A stretch of 64,000 nt of DNA, taken from assembly GCA_016871175.1 (NCBI GenBank), contig VFZL01000017.1, forward strand, positions 1 through 64,000. The letters are read 5' to 3'. Origin of the DNA: Acidimicrobiia bacterium (lineage in GTDB: Bacteria > Acidobacteriota > Vicinamibacteria > Vicinamibacterales > CAVVIG01). Below are positions 3,576 to 10,739 of the stretch, one piece after another. The position numbers and the translations under genes were made by a program. The notes below the pieces were generated by a model. It worked only from the letters and a program-made list of their open reading frames with translations, had not been told where the DNA came from and did no database searches. Numbering within the stretch: position 1 is the first letter of the stretch; each line of letters starts with the position of its first letter.

Positions 3576-4619
3576 CTACTTGAACAGTGCTTTCGCGAGC
3601 GAGGCGTGGACGCCTTTGGTGGCGTCGACAGCTTGTGTGACGTGGAAGTCGGCGGCCAGAGAGCAGAGCATGTAGGCGTCGTCGCGCGAGAGATTCTTCT
3701 CGGCGACGAGGAAATCGATCATCTCACGCACGGCCAGGCGCGTCGCCTCGTCCAGATCCTCGCGCAGCCCCATCGCAATATAGTGCGTGGGGGTCTCGGC
3801 CCGCGGCCACCGCAGCCGCGCGTCCTTGCGCAGGTGGATCTCGAACGTCCCGCGCAGCGAGGTCTCAAGCGCCGTGCCCGTCACCTCCCCGTCGCCCTAG
3901 CGGGCGTGGCCGTCGCCGACCGACAGGAGTGCGCCCGGCACGTGGACCGGCAAATAGAGGATTGATCCCGCGACGAGGTCCTTATTGTCCAGATTGCCGC
4001 CGTGCCAGCCCAGCGGACGACTCGAGATGCGGCCGGCGAGCGGCGGCGGCGCGACGCCAAATAGATCCGAAGAAGGGCGCCAGCGCAGCGTGATTCCGGG
4101 GGAGAACTGGACGCGGTCGGCACCCGGCGCCCAACGCAGGAGCTTCAGGCTGGAGTACGGGAAGTCGTCGGGCAGAACGCCGCTGCCCGGGCTGAAGGCG
4201 TTCACGCCGAACGGATGGAGATAGTCTATCGCCATGATGCGGACTTCGAGCGTGTGGCCGGGCAGGGCCCCGTCCACGTAAATCGGGCCCGTCATCGGAT
4301 GCGCGCCAGGTCCGCGCACGGTCACGCGCTATTCCACCATCTTCAGTGCGTCGGGAATCTCGGCTTCCGTCGCGCCGGCGAGCCGTAGCCTCTGCAGGCC
4401 TCCCGCGATCATCGTCTCGACGCGGACGCGATCGCCGGAAGCGATGCGCAAGACGGGCGTGAGCGTGGCATCGTAGTAGCCCCAGTGCACATGCTCGGGC
4501 GTGAGCCGCAGCTCGTGCGTGGGCGCTTGTGCGGCGACCGTGGCTGTGAGGAGCGTCGTCAGCGCCAACAACGCCGCGCCACACGTTCGACGGGGTCCGG
4601 GTCGTGTCGGCTGCACCAT
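3576..4619 (-). pseudogene. Acetamidase/formamidase (FmdA/AmdA family), two in-frame TAG codons
   Basis: The family hydrolyses formamide or acetamide to ammonia and the acid. The frame starts at an ATG (4619) with a signal-like MVQPTRPGPRRTCGAALLAL and reads through THELRLTPEHVHWGYY. It meets TAG at 4329-4331 (after DALKMVE), continues VRGPGAHPMTGPIYVDGALPGHTLEV, NLDNKDLVAGSILYLPVHVPGALLSVGDGHAR, then meets a second TAG at 3897-3899. It resumes GDGEVTGTALETSLRGTFEI to the end ALFK (final stop also TAG). In this family the second position is the conserved Gln of the GDGHxxQGDGE signature, so CAG to TAG is the likely change. Everything else is collinear with full-length homologues. A signal peptide is common in acidobacterial versions. 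Non-functional unless the stops are sequencing errors or are suppressed. Confidence 0.8.
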
Positions 4620-4779
4620 CTCGTCCCGGCGCCAATTATAGCGATACCCGATGAGCGATACGGTGTCGGGCGCTCCGGCGATGTGCATTCGCCACACAGG
4701 ACTCGGCTCCGAAGCGTGGCAGCTGCAACGCCTCGCCAGGAGGCAAGTCCGGGAATGACGCTGCCGTTCGGAGGCCATG

Positions 4780-5283
4780 TCAATCGAGACCCGCGCGGCG
4801 AATGGCTGCCGCTTTCCGCTCCAATCGTGCGGCGCGCCGCAGGTGCGCCGCGTCGCAGACGCGCCGCTCGTCATCGGTATCGACGACCAGAGGCGGGACA
4901 GGGACCCGCTCGCCTTCGGGACCGATGGCCACGAACGTCAGGAAGGCCTGGCTGGTGAGCCGCCGCTGGCCCGTCAGCGATTCCTCCGAGAAGACGTCGA
5001 CTTGCACCTCGAGCGACGTGGTGAACGCGCAGGTTACGCGCGCCTTCAGGATGATGAGATCGCCAACTCTGATCGGGTGGAGGAACTGAAGATCGTCGAC
5101 GGCGGCCGTCACGACGCGTGTGCGGGTGTGGCGAAGCGAAGCGATCGCCCCGGCGATGTCGACGAGGTGCATGACGGTGCCGCCGAGGATGAACCCGAGG
5201 GGGTTGGCATCGTTGGGCAGCACCACCTGCACCATCTCGGTGACCGAGTCCGCCGCTCGCTTCGGGGTGAGGGGCGCGGTCAA
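4780..5283 (-). CDS. Acyl-CoA thioesterase, hotdog fold (YciA/cytosolic ACOT type)
   Basis: About 167 residues. It contains the hotdog-domain thioesterase core with MVQVVLPNDANPLGFILGG, then HLVDIAGAIASLRHT and LQFLHPIRVGDLIIL. The segment with N and D (NDANPLGFILGG) matches the catalytic region of acyl-CoA hydrolases of the BFIT/YciA group, which cleave acyl-CoA to free acid and CoA in the cytoplasm. I chose a TTG start at 5283, giving MTAPLTPKRAADSVTEMVQ, because homologues carry a short polar leader before TEMVQVVLP; an ATG at 5237 would cut into that region. It begins 5 bp after the stop of the large surface peptidase gene on the same strand, so the two may be co-transcribed without an obvious functional link. 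Confidence 0.85.
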   Translation of the reverse strand: MTAPLTPKRAADSVTEMVQVVLPNDANPLGFILGGTVMHLVDIAGAIASLRHTRTRVVTAAVDDLQFLHPIRVGDLIILKARVTCAFTTSLEVQVDVFSEESLTGQRRLTSQAFLTFVAIGPEGERVPVPPLVVDTDDERRVCDAAHLRRAARLERKAAAIRRAGLD

Positions 5284-5287
5284 GGCG

Positions 5288-8200
5288 TCAGAAGTCGTAC
5301 CCGATCCAGATCGCGAACCGAGGCTCGCGGAAGGCGCTGCTGCCGCCAACGTCCGCGAACTGAACGTCCTCCCACTCACGGTTGAACAACGTCCGCCAGG
5401 ACCAGTCGAAGTGGATCGGGAAGCCGAGCATGAATGTTTCCAGGCCGACGCCGTAAGACGCGCGCCCATCGCGCAGGCGAAACCCGCCGATGGTCCGAGC
5501 CGGGCCGTAGATCGGCACTGGCAGGTTCGTTCGCGGATCGAAGAGGATGTTGCCCACGAGATCCCGTTGGTAATCGACGATCGGCTGCACGCTCTCCGAG
5601 TCTCTCGACCAGAATTTGAAGCCTTGATCGAGGAACCAGCCACCGCCGACGTTCGCGTAGAAGACGCCGCGGATCCCGCCGATGACGCCTATGGGCGTGA
5701 GCGCCGCCTCGATGAGCGGGAACCGGAGTTCGGCATTGGCGAAGACGGCATTCGAACCGACGAACGAGAGGTAATCGTACCCGCGCATCTCGGAGTTGCC
5801 GCCGAAATACATGTAGTCGGGAAACGACCCGAGGCTCTTGAAGCCGCGAATCCGCATCGCCAGCACACCGCTGGTTGCCAGCCGCTGGTAGTAGCGGGCG
5901 TCGACGTCGAGGGTTTGACGCGACAACGTGTTGCCGATCTTGGGCGACACGTCATAGGACGCGCGCATCGTGCTCCCAGCCAGGGGCCCGAACTCACGAA
6001 ACACCGTCGTTTCCTGCACGAACGCTACGCTGAACGGGACGACCGTGCCGTTGCGGAACGCCGTGGATCCACGAAGCGAGTTGATGTAGTTCTGTACGCC
6101 CTGATCGGCGTACTGCTCGCTCAAGTGGTACGCGCCGGCGCTGAGCTCCACACGTCGGAAACGATCGAAGGGGTAGATGCCCATGGCGCTGCCGCCCTGG
6201 ATCGTTCGCGTCGCGACCGCCAGGTCGCGGCTCAAAAGCCCCGAGAGCACGGGGTCGAAGAAGACGTTCTGCAAGGCGCCATAGAAGAACTGCGTCTGCG
6301 AGAACCCCTGCAGGGCCCACTGGAAGCGCTTGGACAGGTTCGTCCAGCTTCCTGCGAACGTTCGGTACTGCTGAATGGACGCCGCGAAGAAGCTGAACTG
6401 CTGGTCGCCGAGGACATCCCCAAAGCTAACCGCCGTGCCGCCGAACACGTCACCGTTGCTCGTCATGCCGACGTTCACCGGTGGACGGCCCTCCAGGAAC
6501 AGCTTCTCGAACGCCTTCTTCCGGCGCTGATTCGAGGCTACCAAGGTGTGCGCTACAGGCGCTTGGAAATCGATCACCGGACCGGGCGCGCCGAAGTCCG
6601 CTGACGCAGCGGTATGGAGCGGTTCCTTGCGATCGATCGCGTGCACCGAGTAATCGCCCTTGTAGTAGCTGACGAAGGCGATCCGGCTGTTGGTTCCGTC
6701 CTTCAGCACCACCGCCGACAAGTTGCCGCCCAATGTGTCCGTGTACTGGCGGAGCTCGCCGTTGTTCAGATCGAGCGTCCAGATGTTGTAGATGTTTCCG
6801 TTACGTGCCACCTCCGGCTCGATGGACAGCGCCGGATCGACGGCCGTCGACGAGAACACTAGCGTGCGGGCGTCGATGAACTGTGCGGCCGAATCGTCGT
6901 GGGTGCCGAAGGTGAGCTGGGTCTTCTTCTTGGAGTCGAGATCGATCCGGAACAGCTTCTGATTGCCGCTCAGGCGCACGCTGTAGACCAGATACCGGCC
7001 GTCGGGCGAGTAGGTCGGCCCTGCGTCCGCGAACTCGTCGTTGGTGACGTTGGTGACCTCGAGTGTCTGGAGGTTCACGGTGAAGATGTCGCCCGTGCCG
7101 CCGCGCAAGCCGGCGAAAGCGATCGTGGTGCCGTCCGGAGAAAACGAGGGTGATTCGGGCTCGTCCACGGTCCGCATCGGCACGCGGATCTCGAGCTTGC
7201 GGGTCAACACGTTCTGGATCATCAGCGTGCGCTCCTTCTCGGTGCGCACGAAGTACGCCAAGCGATCACCACTGGGTGACCACGCCATCCAGGGTACGGT
7301 GTTGAACCGCTCGCCGTACTGCGCGATGTTGGTGAAGCCGAGGTCCTTGTCGAACCCGCGCGTCAGATTGCGTACGGTGGTCCCGTCCTTCGTCGAGGAC
7401 AGAATGATGTCGATCTCCTGGTCCTTGCGGTTCAGCGTGACCATCGCCATGAGGTCGCCCGACGGCGACGGTACGATGCTGAGGGCTTGCGCGAAGCTTG
7501 TCTTCTCCTGGTTCGGGGACAGGTCCCGCCCGTAGTCGGCGGGTCGCTCCTTATCGCGGAACGGCTTGAACTGGTCTTTGATGTACCGCTCGAACGCCTG
7601 ATCGAACTCGTCCGGCGTCATTTGGAACGCTTCCTGGTAAGCGTCCTCGCCGCCACCGATCACGCTCTTGCGAAGCGCGAACATGAACTGGCGAATCCCT
7701 TCCTTGCCCCACCGAGCCTCGATGAACTCGAAAATCGCGTGCCCGAGGTTGTACACGAGCCGCACGTTGCCGCCCGGCACGTAGCCTTGTACCTTCGTCA
7801 TCTTCGGCACGATGTCGGCGACCGCCGCGTCGCGGATCATGGCGAGGTCGAGCGGCGTCCAGGCGCCGCGCATGTAGTCCGACAAGCCCTCGTTCACCCA
7901 CAGCGGCACGCTCTGCCGAATCAACGACTGTGGGATGATGTCGAACTCGAAGATGTGCGTGAGCTCGTGGGCGATGAGGCCGTACAGGCGATCGGGTGGG
8001 TCGTCGATCGGCAAGAGCATCCGATTGCGGAACGGCTCGGCGAACGCGCCCACGCCCTCCTGTGCGGCGCCGGGAATAACGTTCTGCTGCTCGAACTCGC
8101 TGTGCGTCTTGAACAGCACCATCGGCACCTTGAAGGACAGGTCGTGTTTCAGGTCGGAGCTGACCTGCTCGTAGGCGCTCTCGGCGTAGCCGGCAACCCG

Positions 8201-8431
8201 TTCCAGGTGCTTTTCCAACTCGGGGTAGTAGTAGATCTCGAAATGATCGGTCGTGTAGATATGCCAGTCGAACGTGTCGTAATGAATGTTGTTCTTTCCG
8301 AAGTACGGCACAAACGGAGTCTGCGCGAGGAGCGTGCGGACCGGACCTAGGAGTCCCAGGATCGTCACCAGCACGCAAACGGGCAGTGAGCCGAGAGGGG
8401 AGGGGCCACGCGGTGGGGCGCACATACGCAT
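5288..8431 (-). CDS. Exported gluzincin metallopeptidase with PD40 beta-propeller and C-terminal beta-barrel
   Basis: 1047 residues with three visible parts. After an export signal (LVTILGLLGPVRTLLAQ) comes a peptidase-MA-like region with the zinc motif AHELTHIFEFD near residue 155 and a downstream WVNEGLSDYMRG near residue 178 that supplies the third (Glu) ligand, as in gluzincins. Residues about 310-650 carry TolB/PD40-type propeller repeats (YSPDGRYLVYS, FSPDGTTIAFAG). The last ~300 residues are beta-rich and resemble an Omp85/D15-type barrel (YFGGNSEMRGYDYLSF, NAELRFPLIEA) and end in an aromatic residue (IWIGYDF), typical of outer-membrane barrels. The start has AAAGGAA about 8 bp upstream. 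It is probably anchored in the outer membrane. Substrate unknown. Confidence 0.8.
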   Translation of the reverse strand: MRMCAPPRGPSPLGSLPVCVLVTILGLLGPVRTLLAQTPFVPYFGKNNIHYDTFDWHIYTTDHFEIYYYPELEKHLERVAGYAESAYEQVSSDLKHDLSFKVPMVLFKTHSEFEQQNVIPGAAQEGVGAFAEPFRNRMLLPIDDPPDRLYGLIAHELTHIFEFDIIPQSLIRQSVPLWVNEGLSDYMRGAWTPLDLAMIRDAAVADIVPKMTKVQGYVPGGNVRLVYNLGHAIFEFIEARWGKEGIRQFMFALRKSVIGGGEDAYQEAFQMTPDEFDQAFERYIKDQFKPFRDKERPADYGRDLSPNQEKTSFAQALSIVPSPSGDLMAMVTLNRKDQEIDIILSSTKDGTTVRNLTRGFDKDLGFTNIAQYGERFNTVPWMAWSPSGDRLAYFVRTEKERTLMIQNVLTRKLEIRVPMRTVDEPESPSFSPDGTTIAFAGLRGGTGDIFTVNLQTLEVTNVTNDEFADAGPTYSPDGRYLVYSVRLSGNQKLFRIDLDSKKKTQLTFGTHDDSAAQFIDARTLVFSSTAVDPALSIEPEVARNGNIYNIWTLDLNNGELRQYTDTLGGNLSAVVLKDGTNSRIAFVSYYKGDYSVHAIDRKEPLHTAASADFGAPGPVIDFQAPVAHTLVASNQRRKKAFEKLFLEGRPPVNVGMTSNGDVFGGTAVSFGDVLGDQQFSFFAASIQQYRTFAGSWTNLSKRFQWALQGFSQTQFFYGALQNVFFDPVLSGLLSRDLAVATRTIQGGSAMGIYPFDRFRRVELSAGAYHLSEQYADQGVQNYINSLRGSTAFRNGTVVPFSVAFVQETTVFREFGPLAGSTMRASYDVSPKIGNTLSRQTLDVDARYYQRLATSGVLAMRIRGFKSLGSFPDYMYFGGNSEMRGYDYLSFVGSNAVFANAELRFPLIEAALTPIGVIGGIRGVFYANVGGGWFLDQGFKFWSRDSESVQPIVDYQRDLVGNILFDPRTNLPVPIYGPARTIGGFRLRDGRASYGVGLETFMLGFPIHFDWSWRTLFNREWEDVQFADVGGSSAFREPRFAIWIGYDF

Positions 8432-8760
8432 AAGCTCGTTCCTTTAGGTCACCAAGGGCAAGACCGACGGGCGACCCCTCGGAGGTCGCGTGTATCACAG
8501 CCAGCGACGCCGCACGAACACCTACGACCGATGTCGCAATCTTACTGTGACGCTCCGGACCCGGCAAACCGCGATCCTTTGACGACGCGGCGGTTTGCGG
8601 GCACGCTGCCTCGTGTGTCCACCGAGAGCACCAGAGTGCTGCCCCCTCCCGGCGACACGTTATACTCAGCCGAGGGGGTGGCGTCCGCGGACCGGGTGGC
8701 CCGACCGGGAATATCTGGACGTCCCCGGGGGTTTATCTTGGCGCGGCCGTCTTATTGCGG
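8432..8760. promoter_or_regulatory. Divergent control region between the surface peptidase and the sigma-factor operon
   Basis: 329 bp without a gene. The minus side holds the Shine-Dalgarno of the peptidase gene (AAGGAA). Toward the sigma gene there is a perfect short palindrome AGCACCAGAGTGCT near 8628-8641 and a sigma-70-like -10 hexamer TATACT at 8661-8666, flanked by an imperfect inverted repeat (CCCCCTC / GAGGGGG). No good -35 is visible. These are candidates only. Confidence 0.35.
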
Positions 8761-9327
8761 ATGAGCGAGGCCCAGTCACCGTTGTGGGACGCTCCGGCCG
8801 ACCGGACGGCGTTGTTCGAGGCCGAGGCGCTCGCGGCCCTCGACGGGCTCTACCGAACGGCCCTGCGGCTGACGCGGGTGCCGGCCGATTCCGAGGACTT
8901 GGTGCAGGAGACGTATCTGAAGGCCTTTCGCGCTGCCGAGTCATTCACCCCGGGCACCAACCTGCGTGCCTGGATGTTCACCATTCTCCACAACACGTTT
9001 CGCAATCGACTCCGCGACCGCGCTCGCGAGCCTGTCCAGGCCGACAGCGAGGCTGTCGAGCGCGTCGGTGATCTGCCGTCATCGGCCGGTGAAACCCCCG
9101 AGACGCTGCTGTTGCGTGACGTCCTCGCACCTGAGCTCCAGGCGGCGATTGACGACCTGCCTGAGGCGTTTCGGCAGGCGGTATGGCTGCGGGACGTCGA
9201 GGAGTTTGCCTACGCCGACATCGCGGGCATGCTCGGAGTGCCCATCGGGACGGTGATGTCGCGAATCTCCCGGGGGCGTCGGCTGCTGTTTGAGCGTCTG
9301 AATCGAGGAAAGCTCGCTCATGTCTAG
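8761..9327 (+). CDS. RNA polymerase ECF sigma factor
   Basis: 188 residues from the ATG at 8761. Region 2 is clear (ALDGLYRTALRLTRVPADSEDLVQET, YLKAFRAAESFTPGTNLRAW, ILHNTFRNRLRD) and region 4 reads LPEAFRQAVWLRDVEEFAYADIAGMLGVPIGTVMSRISRGRRLL. It lacks sigma-70 regions 1 and 3, as expected for group 4. Its stop overlaps the start of the anti-sigma gene by 8 bp (both lie in CTCATGTCTAGC), so the two are translationally coupled. It likely directs RNA polymerase to stress promoters, possibly including its own, under control of the downstream zinc-finger partner. A TTG two codons upstream is an alternative start. Confidence 0.93.
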   Translation: MSEAQSPLWDAPADRTALFEAEALAALDGLYRTALRLTRVPADSEDLVQETYLKAFRAAESFTPGTNLRAWMFTILHNTFRNRLRDRAREPVQADSEAVERVGDLPSSAGETPETLLLRDVLAPELQAAIDDLPEAFRQAVWLRDVEEFAYADIAGMLGVPIGTVMSRISRGRRLLFERLNRGKLAHV

Positions 9328-10105
9328 CTGTACTGGTATTGATGCGATTGTCACCCCGTATGTCGACGGAGAGCTCGACCACGATGCTCGCGGTCTGGTG
9401 GACGCCCACCTTCAGGGCTGTGCCGTCTGTCGCGCGCGCGTGACCGCCGAACGCGCCGCCTACGCGCTGGTGAAACGTCGTCAGGCCGATCTCAGGGGCG
9501 TCTGCGCGCCAGATTCGCTGCGCGAGCGCTGCGCGGCGCTCCGCAGGGCACCGGTGGTGCCGTGGTCGGCGCGTGCCGTGGGCGCTCGGTTACGGCCGTC
9601 GCGCTCGACTCGCCCGATGGTTCGCCTGGCGTTCGCCGCAACCGTGCTGATTGCGGTCGCGGGAACGATCTTCTACCGCGTGACGGCGGGCGCTCAGCAA
9701 GCCATCGCCGCCGAACTCACCGCGGACCACGCCAAGTGCTTCGCGCTGAACAGTATCCTTCGGACGCATCAATCCGTCGGAGAGGTCGAGGCGTACCTGC
9801 GGTCGGGATTCGATTGGGAAGCGGCGCTCCCCGAGCAGGCCGAGCATGCCGACATGCATCTGGTCGGGTCGCGTCCCTGCCTCTACGAACGCGGCCTAGT
9901 GGCCCACATCATGTACCGTCATCGTGGTGTGCCCGTGTCCATCTTCATGCTTCCGGGCGTCCAGCACGCGTCGAACGTGCTCCGCGCCTTCGGACACGAC
10001 GCCATCATCTGGAACGACCATGGTCGGACGTTCGTGCTGATCGCCAAGGCATCACCGGAGCAGGTCCAACAGGTCGCGACGTTCGTCAGGGCCTCACTGC
10101 ACTGA
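9320..10105 (+). CDS. Membrane anti-sigma factor, zf-HC2 domain plus periplasmic sensor domain
   Basis: 261 residues. The N-terminal zinc-binding anti-sigma motif is DAHLQGCAVCRA (HxxxCxxC), followed by a basic linker, one transmembrane helix (VRLAFAATVLIAVAGTIFY, about residues 93-112) and a ~140-residue extracytoplasmic domain. That domain starts with ELTADHAKCFALN, a conserved-looking HxxC pair, and ends with a segment (AHIMYRHRGVPVSIFMLPG) I have seen in acidobacterial anti-sigma proteins linked to metal or redox sensing. The cytoplasmic zinc finger should hold the upstream ECF sigma and release it when the outer domain senses a signal. The link to copper or thiol chemistry is inferred from the HxxC pair and from the thioredoxin gene downstream. 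Confidence 0.82.
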   Translation: MSSCTGIDAIVTPYVDGELDHDARGLVDAHLQGCAVCRARVTAERAAYALVKRRQADLRGVCAPDSLRERCAALRRAPVVPWSARAVGARLRPSRSTRPMVRLAFAATVLIAVAGTIFYRVTAGAQQAIAAELTADHAKCFALNSILRTHQSVGEVEAYLRSGFDWEAALPEQAEHADMHLVGSRPCLYERGLVAHIMYRHRGVPVSIFMLPGVQHASNVLRAFGHDAIIWNDHGRTFVLIAKASPEQVQQVATFVRASLH

Positions 10106-10130
10106 CCAAGCATCGAGAGAGTTCAGCAAC

Positions 10131-10739
10131 ATGACTCAGATGAAGTGGATCGTGGCTGGCGCGGGGGTTTTGGTCCTCGCGTGGGTGATCTCGGCATCGC
10201 TCATCAGCAGGCGCGGTGCCGGGGAGTCCGCCGACAGGGCGACGCTCGAATCAACCGAGCCCTCGCCGAGCGCCGACCGGGCCACGGCGCATCCCACGCC
10301 GGCCGATGCGTGCCCTGCCGACGCCCCGTTGGCGAAGTTGGATTACACCCTGAAGGGCCTGGACGATGTACCGGTGCGGCTGTCGGATTACAAGGGGAAG
10401 GTAGTCCTGCTCGATTTCTGGGCGACGTGGTGCGGTCCGTGCAAGGTCGAGATCCCCGGATTCGTCGAGCTGCAGGACCAGTACGGCAAGGACGGATTAC
10501 AGATCATTGGCGTATCGGTCGACGACACGCTCGACAAACTGAAGCCTTATGCCGCCGAGATGAAGATGAACTACCCCGTGCTGCAGGGTCTCGGACACGA
10601 TGATCTGCACGACGAGTATGGACTGATGCTTGGCATCCCAGTGTCGGTGATCATTTCCCGCGAGGGGAAGCTCTGCGCTCGGCACGCAGGGCTCACCTCG
10701 AAGGAGACGTTCGAGGCACAGATTCGAGCCTTGCTGTGA
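10131..10739 (+). CDS. Membrane-anchored thioredoxin-like protein (TlpA/ResA family)
   Basis: 202 residues. An N-terminal signal anchor (WIVAGAGVLVLAWVISASLI) is followed by a low-complexity Ala/Pro/Ser linker, then a thioredoxin fold with DYKGKVVLLDFWATWCGPCKVEIPGF. The redox-active CxxC is WCGPC near residue 103, and the cis-Pro region is LGIPVSVIIS. TlpA/ResA proteins act on the periplasmic side of the membrane and reduce disulfides, for example in apocytochromes or CuA sites. The gene lies 25 bp after the anti-sigma gene, so sigma, anti-sigma and thioredoxin probably form one operon that answers thiol or metal stress. ATG start; no anomaly seen. Confidence 0.88.
   Translation: MTQMKWIVAGAGVLVLAWVISASLISRRGAGESADRATLESTEPSPSADRATAHPTPADACPADAPLAKLDYTLKGLDDVPVRLSDYKGKVVLLDFWATWCGPCKVEIPGFVELQDQYGKDGLQIIGVSVDDTLDKLKPYAAEMKMNYPVLQGLGHDDLHDEYGLMLGIPVSVIISREGKLCARHAGLTSKETFEAQIRALL

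Follow-up and report, generated by a model that had tools for sequence, protein, structure and literature searches.

The window analysed here is a stretch of 64,000 nucleotides from a soil bacterium of the order Vicinamibacterales, phylum Acidobacteriota (contig VFZL01000017.1, assembly GCA_016871175.1). Its minus strand contains, at positions 5288-8431, an open reading frame (ORF) of 1047 codons, which was delimited as a gene from the ORF itself and its relatives. From N to C terminus, the encoded protein comprises a signal peptide, a gluzincin-type zinc peptidase domain, a TolB-like beta-propeller and a BamA-type Omp85 barrel, all on the minus strand. The signal peptide (residues 1-36, positions 8324-8431) was assigned from hydropathy, with a hydrophobic core at about residues 10-30 and a cleavage point, judged by eye, between LLA and QTP; a crude lipobox scan found no lipobox in the protein. 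The peptidase domain spans residues 37-300 (positions 7532-8323), as indicated by the Peptidase_MA_2 family, a model of the isolated domain and fold matches, and the propeller covers residues 300-605 (positions 6617-7534), as indicated by PD40 repeats, a TolB profile and TolB structures. A linker of about 40 residues leads to the barrel at residues ~647-1047 (positions 5291-6493), which was recognised from the model and from its matches to BamA, SAM50 and TamA.

The AlphaFold2 model of the full-length protein, built on 34 sequences, had a predicted local distance difference test value (pLDDT) of 79 and a predicted template modelling score (pTM) of 0.70. Full-length relatives were found at 33 loci with 59-85% identity, and a further 24 came from the wider phylum with 26-60% identity, a range that excludes a chance origin of the architecture. 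Furthermore, the distances between sequence pairs calculated for the peptidase, the propeller and the barrel were correlated with one another (r 0.88-0.90), which is what joint inheritance of the three parts would produce. A preliminary description of this stretch had placed three such domains in a single chain of 1047 residues, while allowing that the C-terminal part might prove not to be a barrel. The model, the fold matches and residue conservation all agree with the first proposal; the C-terminal part is modelled as a BamA-type barrel. We consider it almost certain that this architecture is real.

Conservation was assessed in two alignments with four sequences in common. Alignment A1 has 34 rows, after seven of the 40 related loci had been dropped because of frame breaks or contig ends (L013, L015, L033, L034, L035, L037 and L040). 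Alignment A2 consists of 28 selected divergent sequences, the relatives in it being 26-85% identical to the query; locus L093 is outside A2 and was included in alignment A3.

Active site, propeller and barrel

The match of the query to Peptidase_MA_2 (E 0.002) lies under the Pfam cut-off, and 27 of the 34 A1 members match this family at E<=0.01. Folded alone, the peptidase domain had a pLDDT of 83.9, and its best fold matches were collagenase gluzincins of family M9 (7wss_A, Z 16.7, root-mean-square deviation (rmsd) 4.5 over 240 residues), followed by the M30 lugdulysin 7bb8_A (Z 15.4, rmsd 6.3 over 237) and the M1 aminopeptidase 2gtq (Z 13.4, rmsd 4.0 over 201). Mostly helical models may reach a Z score of about 13 by chance, so the weight of the gluzincin assignment is borne by the M9 matches together with the motifs described below. 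The M9, M30 and M1 peptidases resemble the query in their gluzincin fold and HEXXH...E ligand set, but they are only 10-17% identical to it in the listed structural alignments, and the query domain is joined to a propeller and a barrel. No Peptidase_M48 domain was found in the query at E<=1 in the Pfam scan.

The HELTH motif (residues 155-159, positions 7955-7969) provides, as predicted from conservation, the zinc ligands H155 and H159 and the catalytic E156; all three residues are invariant in both A2 (28/28) and A1 (34/34). The predicted third ligand, E181, lies in the NEGLSDY motif (residues 180-186, positions 7874-7894), in which E181 and G182 are present in 28/28 sequences of A2, with N180 in 2/28, S184 in 5/28 and D185 in 8/28. 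Among the close relatives of A1, Asn occupies position 180 in 20 of 34 rows and Asp occupies position 185 in 29, and the thermolysin-like look of this motif is largely limited to these close relatives. Thus, the gluzincin domain read earlier from HELTH plus NEGLSDY stands in its HELTH motif and its fold, and the second motif persists across the relatives only as Glu-Gly. The NEXXSD pattern around the third ligand is what we take to be the signature of the thermolysin family M4; membership of that family was rejected because N180, S184 and D185, though present in the query, are poorly kept among its relatives.

The third motif, YNLGH (residues 227-231, positions 7739-7753), contains the predicted transition-state tyrosine, Y227, which, like D201 and G230, is invariant in A2 (28/28). 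In a profile alignment (E 0.0012), Y227 falls on the tyrosine of the VPYVKG motif of the M1 aminopeptidase 3cia, a residue that we assume to be catalytic, and the title of the M30 entry 7bb9 names the mutations E242Q and Y315F, positions 73 residues apart, versus 71 between E156 and Y227. The conservation of H155, E156, H159, E181 and Y227 in 28/28 sequences, down to 26% identity, suggests selection for catalysis rather than a relic. The HEXXH motif and the downstream Glu, both found in 28/28 sequences, occur here within a gluzincin fold (Z 16.7 to 7wss_A), and the peptidase is predicted from sequence and model to be an active zinc enzyme.

PD40 matched the query at E 1.7e-12, over the Pfam cut-off, and the propeller of the AlphaFold2 model superimposed on TolB (2hqs_A) with a Z score of 25.4 (rmsd 2.6 over 247 residues). 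The fold is therefore shared with TolB, but the propeller of the query is fused to an enzyme and a barrel, and the NCBI TolB profile gave 85 bits rather than the 343 required for an equivalog, over a match spanning profile positions 197-328 of 418.

The barrel was recognised by structure comparison (BamA 8xnb_A, Z 22.9, rmsd 4.1 over 308 residues; SAM50 and TamA, Z ~22). Among profiles, the NCBI Omp85_fam match (E 1.8e-5) was under its cut-off, and Omp85 (PF01103) matched 2 of the 34 A1 members at E<=0.01. By manual count, the model has 14 strands of at least nine residues and one short strand at either end, consistent with 16. The loop-6 motif of the VRGF/Y type is present as MRGY, within GGNSEMRGY (residues 877-885, positions 5777-5803) and the longer stretch YFGGNSEMRGY (residues 875-885); its Arg is found in 28/28 and its Gly in 23/28 sequences of A2, in which G877, R883, E901 and R903 are all invariant (28/28). 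The C-terminal strand, FAIWIGYDF (positions 5291-5317), has an aromatic end, with F or W as the terminal residue in all 34 A1 rows. The protein therefore has the BamA-type barrel and the loop-6 motif of the Omp85 superfamily, with no match to a POTRA domain in Pfam scans of the query or its aligned relatives. Omp85 proteins usually, although not universally, have at least one POTRA domain.

Upstream genes for a TPR protein and P2

Outside the order of the window, the barrel gene is accompanied by two further genes. An unnamed protein of about 220 residues, hereafter referred to as P2, is encoded directly upstream on the same strand in 89/89 of the non-order genomes compared; 97 such genomes have both genes, and G011, G039, G052, G072, G129, G138, G170 and G272 were left out of the count. 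At the 19 loci from outside the order (L075-L093), a small tetratricopeptide repeat (TPR) protein was found upstream in 19/19 and P2 in 19/19, with seven of these loci having supplied the TPR profile and seven the P2 profile. The TPR gene is on the opposite strand in L077, P2 is weak in L090 (30.5 bits), and the two proteins form a single ORF at three loci (L079, L084 and L088). Outside the order, the genes for the barrel protein, the TPR protein and P2 thus form a same-strand cluster, which we infer to be an operon.

P2 was detected in 128 of the 297 genomes sampled from the phylum (E<=1e-6), namely in 126 of the 147 with the barrel protein versus 2 of the 150 without it (Fisher p 4e-58, a value that ignores shared ancestry); the TPR protein was sought within the fetched loci. 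No Pfam or NCBIfam name was assigned to the P2 members scanned, and a PDB profile search with P2 gave no convincing match, the top one (0.015) being to an HD hydrolase. Matches to FlgT_M were weak (5 of 10 members, best 3.2e-4) and were not relied on. The possibility that P2 is a free TolB N-terminal domain was rejected, the profile comparison giving a probability of 0.1% (with a TolB profile of two sequences only). Both the TPR protein and P2 look exported, with N-termini that are hydrophobic by eye, and the crude scan found a lipobox in 4 of 12 TPR and 2 of 10 P2 sequences; the TPR protein and P2 of the window's genome each have one.

In that genome, the genes for the TPR protein and P2 are located on contig C23, between dprA and rplU, apart from the barrel gene. 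The pair was side by side in 20/20 of the further genomes of the order that were read, with an rplU match beside P2 in 19 and dprA in 18; no barrel gene was detected in one of them, G269. Despite the separation, 29 of the 30 genomes listed for the order have kept the barrel gene as well as P2, a count taken over the listed genomes with a match (the 130 match-less genomes of the barrel-protein scan and the 149 of the P2 scan fall outside the listings). In L075, from another order of the same class, the gene order is TPR, P2, barrel gene, rplU. A departure of the barrel gene from the TPR-P2-rplU site within the window's order would be the simplest explanation, the complete arrangement including rplU being seen in one locus; the gene cluster would then have been split with both halves retained.

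Probable periplasmic location and proposed function

The fusion of a propeller to an Omp85 barrel has precedent. A WD40-Omp85 subfamily was established by Heinz and Lithgow (2014), who likened it to a BamA-BamB fusion (PMC4104836), and the query shares with that subfamily an N-terminal TolB-like propeller on an Omp85 barrel, without a POTRA domain. It differs from the subfamily as described there in having the TPR-P2 partners and, at the N terminus, an additional gluzincin domain whose active site is complete. The statement in the preliminary description that the role of such a protein is not described therefore needs qualification: the propeller-Omp85 fusion was already on record, and no mention of a peptidase was found, the word "peptidase" being absent from the main text of that paper. 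The family PF00149 had no match in the query at E<=1. We take PF00149 to be the calcineurin-like metallophosphatases. In this respect, the query is unlike the "Metallo" Omp85 subfamily, described as Omp85 with a metalloprotease, domain PF00149 (PMC4104836). The 2014 survey assigned no tested role to Omp85 subfamilies with unusual N-terminal domains (PMC4104836), and neither "peptidase" nor "propeller" occurs in passages of a paper on the Bacteroidota BAM complex (PMC12611786). Among open-access titles and abstract openings, with most of the subscription literature outside this scope, neither the three-domain protein nor the TPR-P2 pair was found. The propeller-Omp85 fusion has been known since 2014, and the peptidase in the same chain and the TPR-P2 partners appear to be new.

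In Omp85 proteins, the domains N-terminal to the barrel lie in the periplasm. PlpD, a type Vd protein, likewise carries an N-terminal enzyme on an Omp85 barrel, and this enzyme was shown to reside in the periplasm (PMC11116518). PlpD has a patatin-like domain and a POTRA domain, whereas the query has a metallopeptidase and a propeller, and neither a patatin nor a POTRA domain was found in it at E<=1 in the Pfam scan. By analogy, the peptidase and propeller of the query very probably lie on the periplasmic side of the outer membrane.

We suggest, with a probability of about 0.45, that the protein is an outer-membrane-anchored periplasmic protease engaged, with two partners, in assembly or quality control. 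The barrel would anchor the zinc peptidase and the TolB-like propeller at the periplasmic side of the outer membrane, where the barrel protein may assemble with the TPR protein and P2 into one complex on the inner face of this membrane. The propeller, standing in for POTRA domains, and the TPR-P2 pair could bind client proteins, and the barrel might help to insert these clients or only anchor the complex. We presume BepA to be an M48 peptidase and a separate protein, unfused to a barrel. The peptidase of the query may cut or clear clients in the manner of BepA on the BAM machine, where it is a periplasmic zinc metallopeptidase participating in the biogenesis and degradation of LptD (PMC7950410, PMC8423444); the likeness, one of analogy, would lie in a periplasmic zinc metallopeptidase associated with barrel machinery. 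A more specific proposal, which we regard as doubtful, is that of a three-protein machine distinct from BAM and TAM, in which the TPR protein and P2 act with an Omp85 that lacks POTRA domains and unites barrel, protease and a binding platform (the propeller) in a single polypeptide. This machine would serve to insert, proofread or degrade one class of acidobacterial outer-membrane proteins. Quality control built into an Omp85 barrel would be directly testable here, since a complete protease lies in the chain and two candidate partners are genetically tied to it; the partner genes needed for reconstitution are supplied by the loci described above.

Several points weigh against the assembly or quality-control protease. 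The co-occurrence statistic takes no account of shared ancestry, and the P2 profile was built from 10 of the sampled genomes. Furthermore, P2 was undetected in 21 genomes with the barrel protein. In 13 of these, the matches lie near 1e-49 to 1e-60 only, the level of a second, paralogous type, and two have weaker or partial matches (G048 and G279), leaving six with strong matches (G004, G020, G047, G090, G240 and G280). The locus of one of these six, G004, was read (L090), and the TPR gene is in place there, as is P2 with a weak match. L094 and L095, the loci read for the paralogous type, have neither the TPR protein nor P2. No fold was recognised for P2, the TPR protein is short, and no POTRA domain was found, though Omp85 insertases usually have one. 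Finally, a 633-residue relative on plasmid pSR116 of Salinibacter ruber (L104, 3944-5845), annotated as a "basic secretory protein-like protein", consists of the peptidase and propeller without the barrel, indicating that this module can exist alone.

The Salinibacter relative and the apparent lack of a POTRA domain would also fit a barrel that merely tethers a peptidase with a scavenging or signalling role and has no part in insertion or transport. However, the loop-6 Arg and Omp85-typical strand residues are invariant (28/28), which is beyond the needs of an anchor, and the association with P2 is tight; we consider a simple anchor unlikely. Still less likely is a barrel acting as the translocon for one dedicated substrate, which the peptidase would trim during export. 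Omp85/TpsB barrels also act as translocases, FhaC being an example (PMC4104836), and the enzyme and channel are here in a single chain, but no constant passenger gene was present in the clustered flanks of L076-L095, and the constant neighbours are the TPR protein and P2, neither of which is a large secreted protein.

The preliminary description suggested, as one of two options, a surface-anchored protease. In such a type Vd-like system, the peptidase and propeller would be secreted through their own barrel or by BAM to sit on the cell surface. PlpD-type proteins were formerly thought to behave in this way (PMC11116518), and the gluzincin fold is nearest to that of secreted collagenases. Nevertheless, Omp85 topology and the periplasmic enzyme domain of PlpD make a surface location unlikely, two folded domains of about 570 residues would have to cross an Omp85 barrel, and the putative partners look exported, some with a lipobox. 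Such a location is thus improbable, and nothing was found pointing to the self-processing outer-membrane machine that was proposed alongside it.

Neighbouring genes and distribution

Neighbours were counted in 65 of 69 loci after the removal of duplicates, from the window's order or similar, plus L075. Upstream, and divergent from the barrel gene, the plus strand of the window carries an extracytoplasmic function (ECF) sigma factor (SigR/SigH-like, 8755-9327), found in this position in 37 of the 57 loci whose upstream flank reaches 1200 bases or more; it is probably not a component of the barrel protein's system. It is followed by a zinc-finger anti-sigma factor (RsrA-like, 9320-10105), present in 25 of the 32 loci with at least 2500 bases upstream, and a TlpA/ResA-like thiol-disulfide oxidoreductase (10131-10739), the most constant neighbour (30/32 loci). 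Directly downstream is a minus-strand gene for a YciA-like hotdog thioesterase (4780-5286, start approximate; 4HBT 1.1e-15), on the same strand as the barrel gene in 19/31 loci and on the other strand in 2/31. A convergent plus-strand gene (1416-2927) encodes a protein with TPRs and a retropepsin-like aspartic protease (Asp_protease_2 1.5e-20), found in 19 of the 26 loci with at least 3500 bases downstream; the protein contains two retropepsin-like stretches (DTGA/DTGG) in addition to the TPRs. None of these five genes was found in the flanks (to ~3 kb) of L075-L095.

A sigma-70-type promoter, TTGCCG-N17-TAAGAT, was found in the window facing the barrel gene (8539-8567, minus strand), and sites of the TTGC-N-TAAGAT type were directed toward the barrel gene in 38/59 loci and in reverse in 0/59, with 0.45 expected from shuffles. 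A sigma-R-like promoter of the divergent sigma operon (8707-8733, plus strand, with up to two substitutions) faces away from the barrel gene; sites with up to two substitutions were directed toward the sigma gene in 43/60 loci and toward the barrel gene in 2/60. Both patterns were derived from the loci in which they were counted, with the opposite orientation and shuffles as controls. The divergent sigma operon therefore probably does not control the barrel gene, and these orientations make the sigma factor a poor guide to the function of the barrel protein. That the protein is an envelope-stress effector under the adjoining ECF factor, together with TlpA, would fit the recurrence of these three genes, but is highly improbable given the promoter orientations, the barrel gene's own sigma-70-type site and the absence of the sigma, anti-sigma and TlpA genes from the shorter flanks of L075-L095. 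The SigR-like, RsrA-like and TlpA genes (8755-10739, plus strand) follow one another downstream of a sigma-R-like promoter that recurs among the loci, and together they resemble an autoregulated module for thiol stress in Acidobacteria. An acetamidase/formamidase-like gene (3897-4874, minus strand) has an apparent in-frame stop at 4329-4331, with its Pfam match confined to 3897-4325.

The barrel protein had matches in 147 of the 297 sampled genomes of the phylum (E<=1e-20), and in 29 of the 30 genomes listed for the window's family and order. The window's genome (4.4 Mb in 85 contigs) has four other PF01103 loci (154, 145, 44 and 42.5 bits), so this protein is additional to the other Omp85 proteins of the genome rather than its sole or main BamA-type protein. 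PF13485 matched this genome at four places and the TolB profile at 19, both sets including this gene and a diverged paralogue with 28% identity on contig C18 (16786-18477, L042). An in-frame stop together with a change of frame splits the paralogue into three ORFs, pointing to either a pseudogene or an assembly error; relatives of its type are open frames in other genomes. Profile searches of the window's genome found no TolB N-terminal domain and no above-cut-off TolB, and Tol-Pal may be incomplete or divergent in this genome, or lost to assembly gaps. The Pal lipoprotein was found on contig C22.

Outside Acidobacteriota, the evidence comes from a plasmid search and one contig scan, the latter returning close relatives. 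Of the 13 plasmid records, only that from Salinibacter matched the peptidase and propeller, the other 12 matching only within query residues 311-616. The 40 related loci in named genomes are from metagenome assemblies, and all but L036 are labelled as Acidobacteria or its subgroups. L036, labelled Woeseiaceae, has a 58%-identical copy with acidobacterial downstream neighbours, and is probably misbinned.

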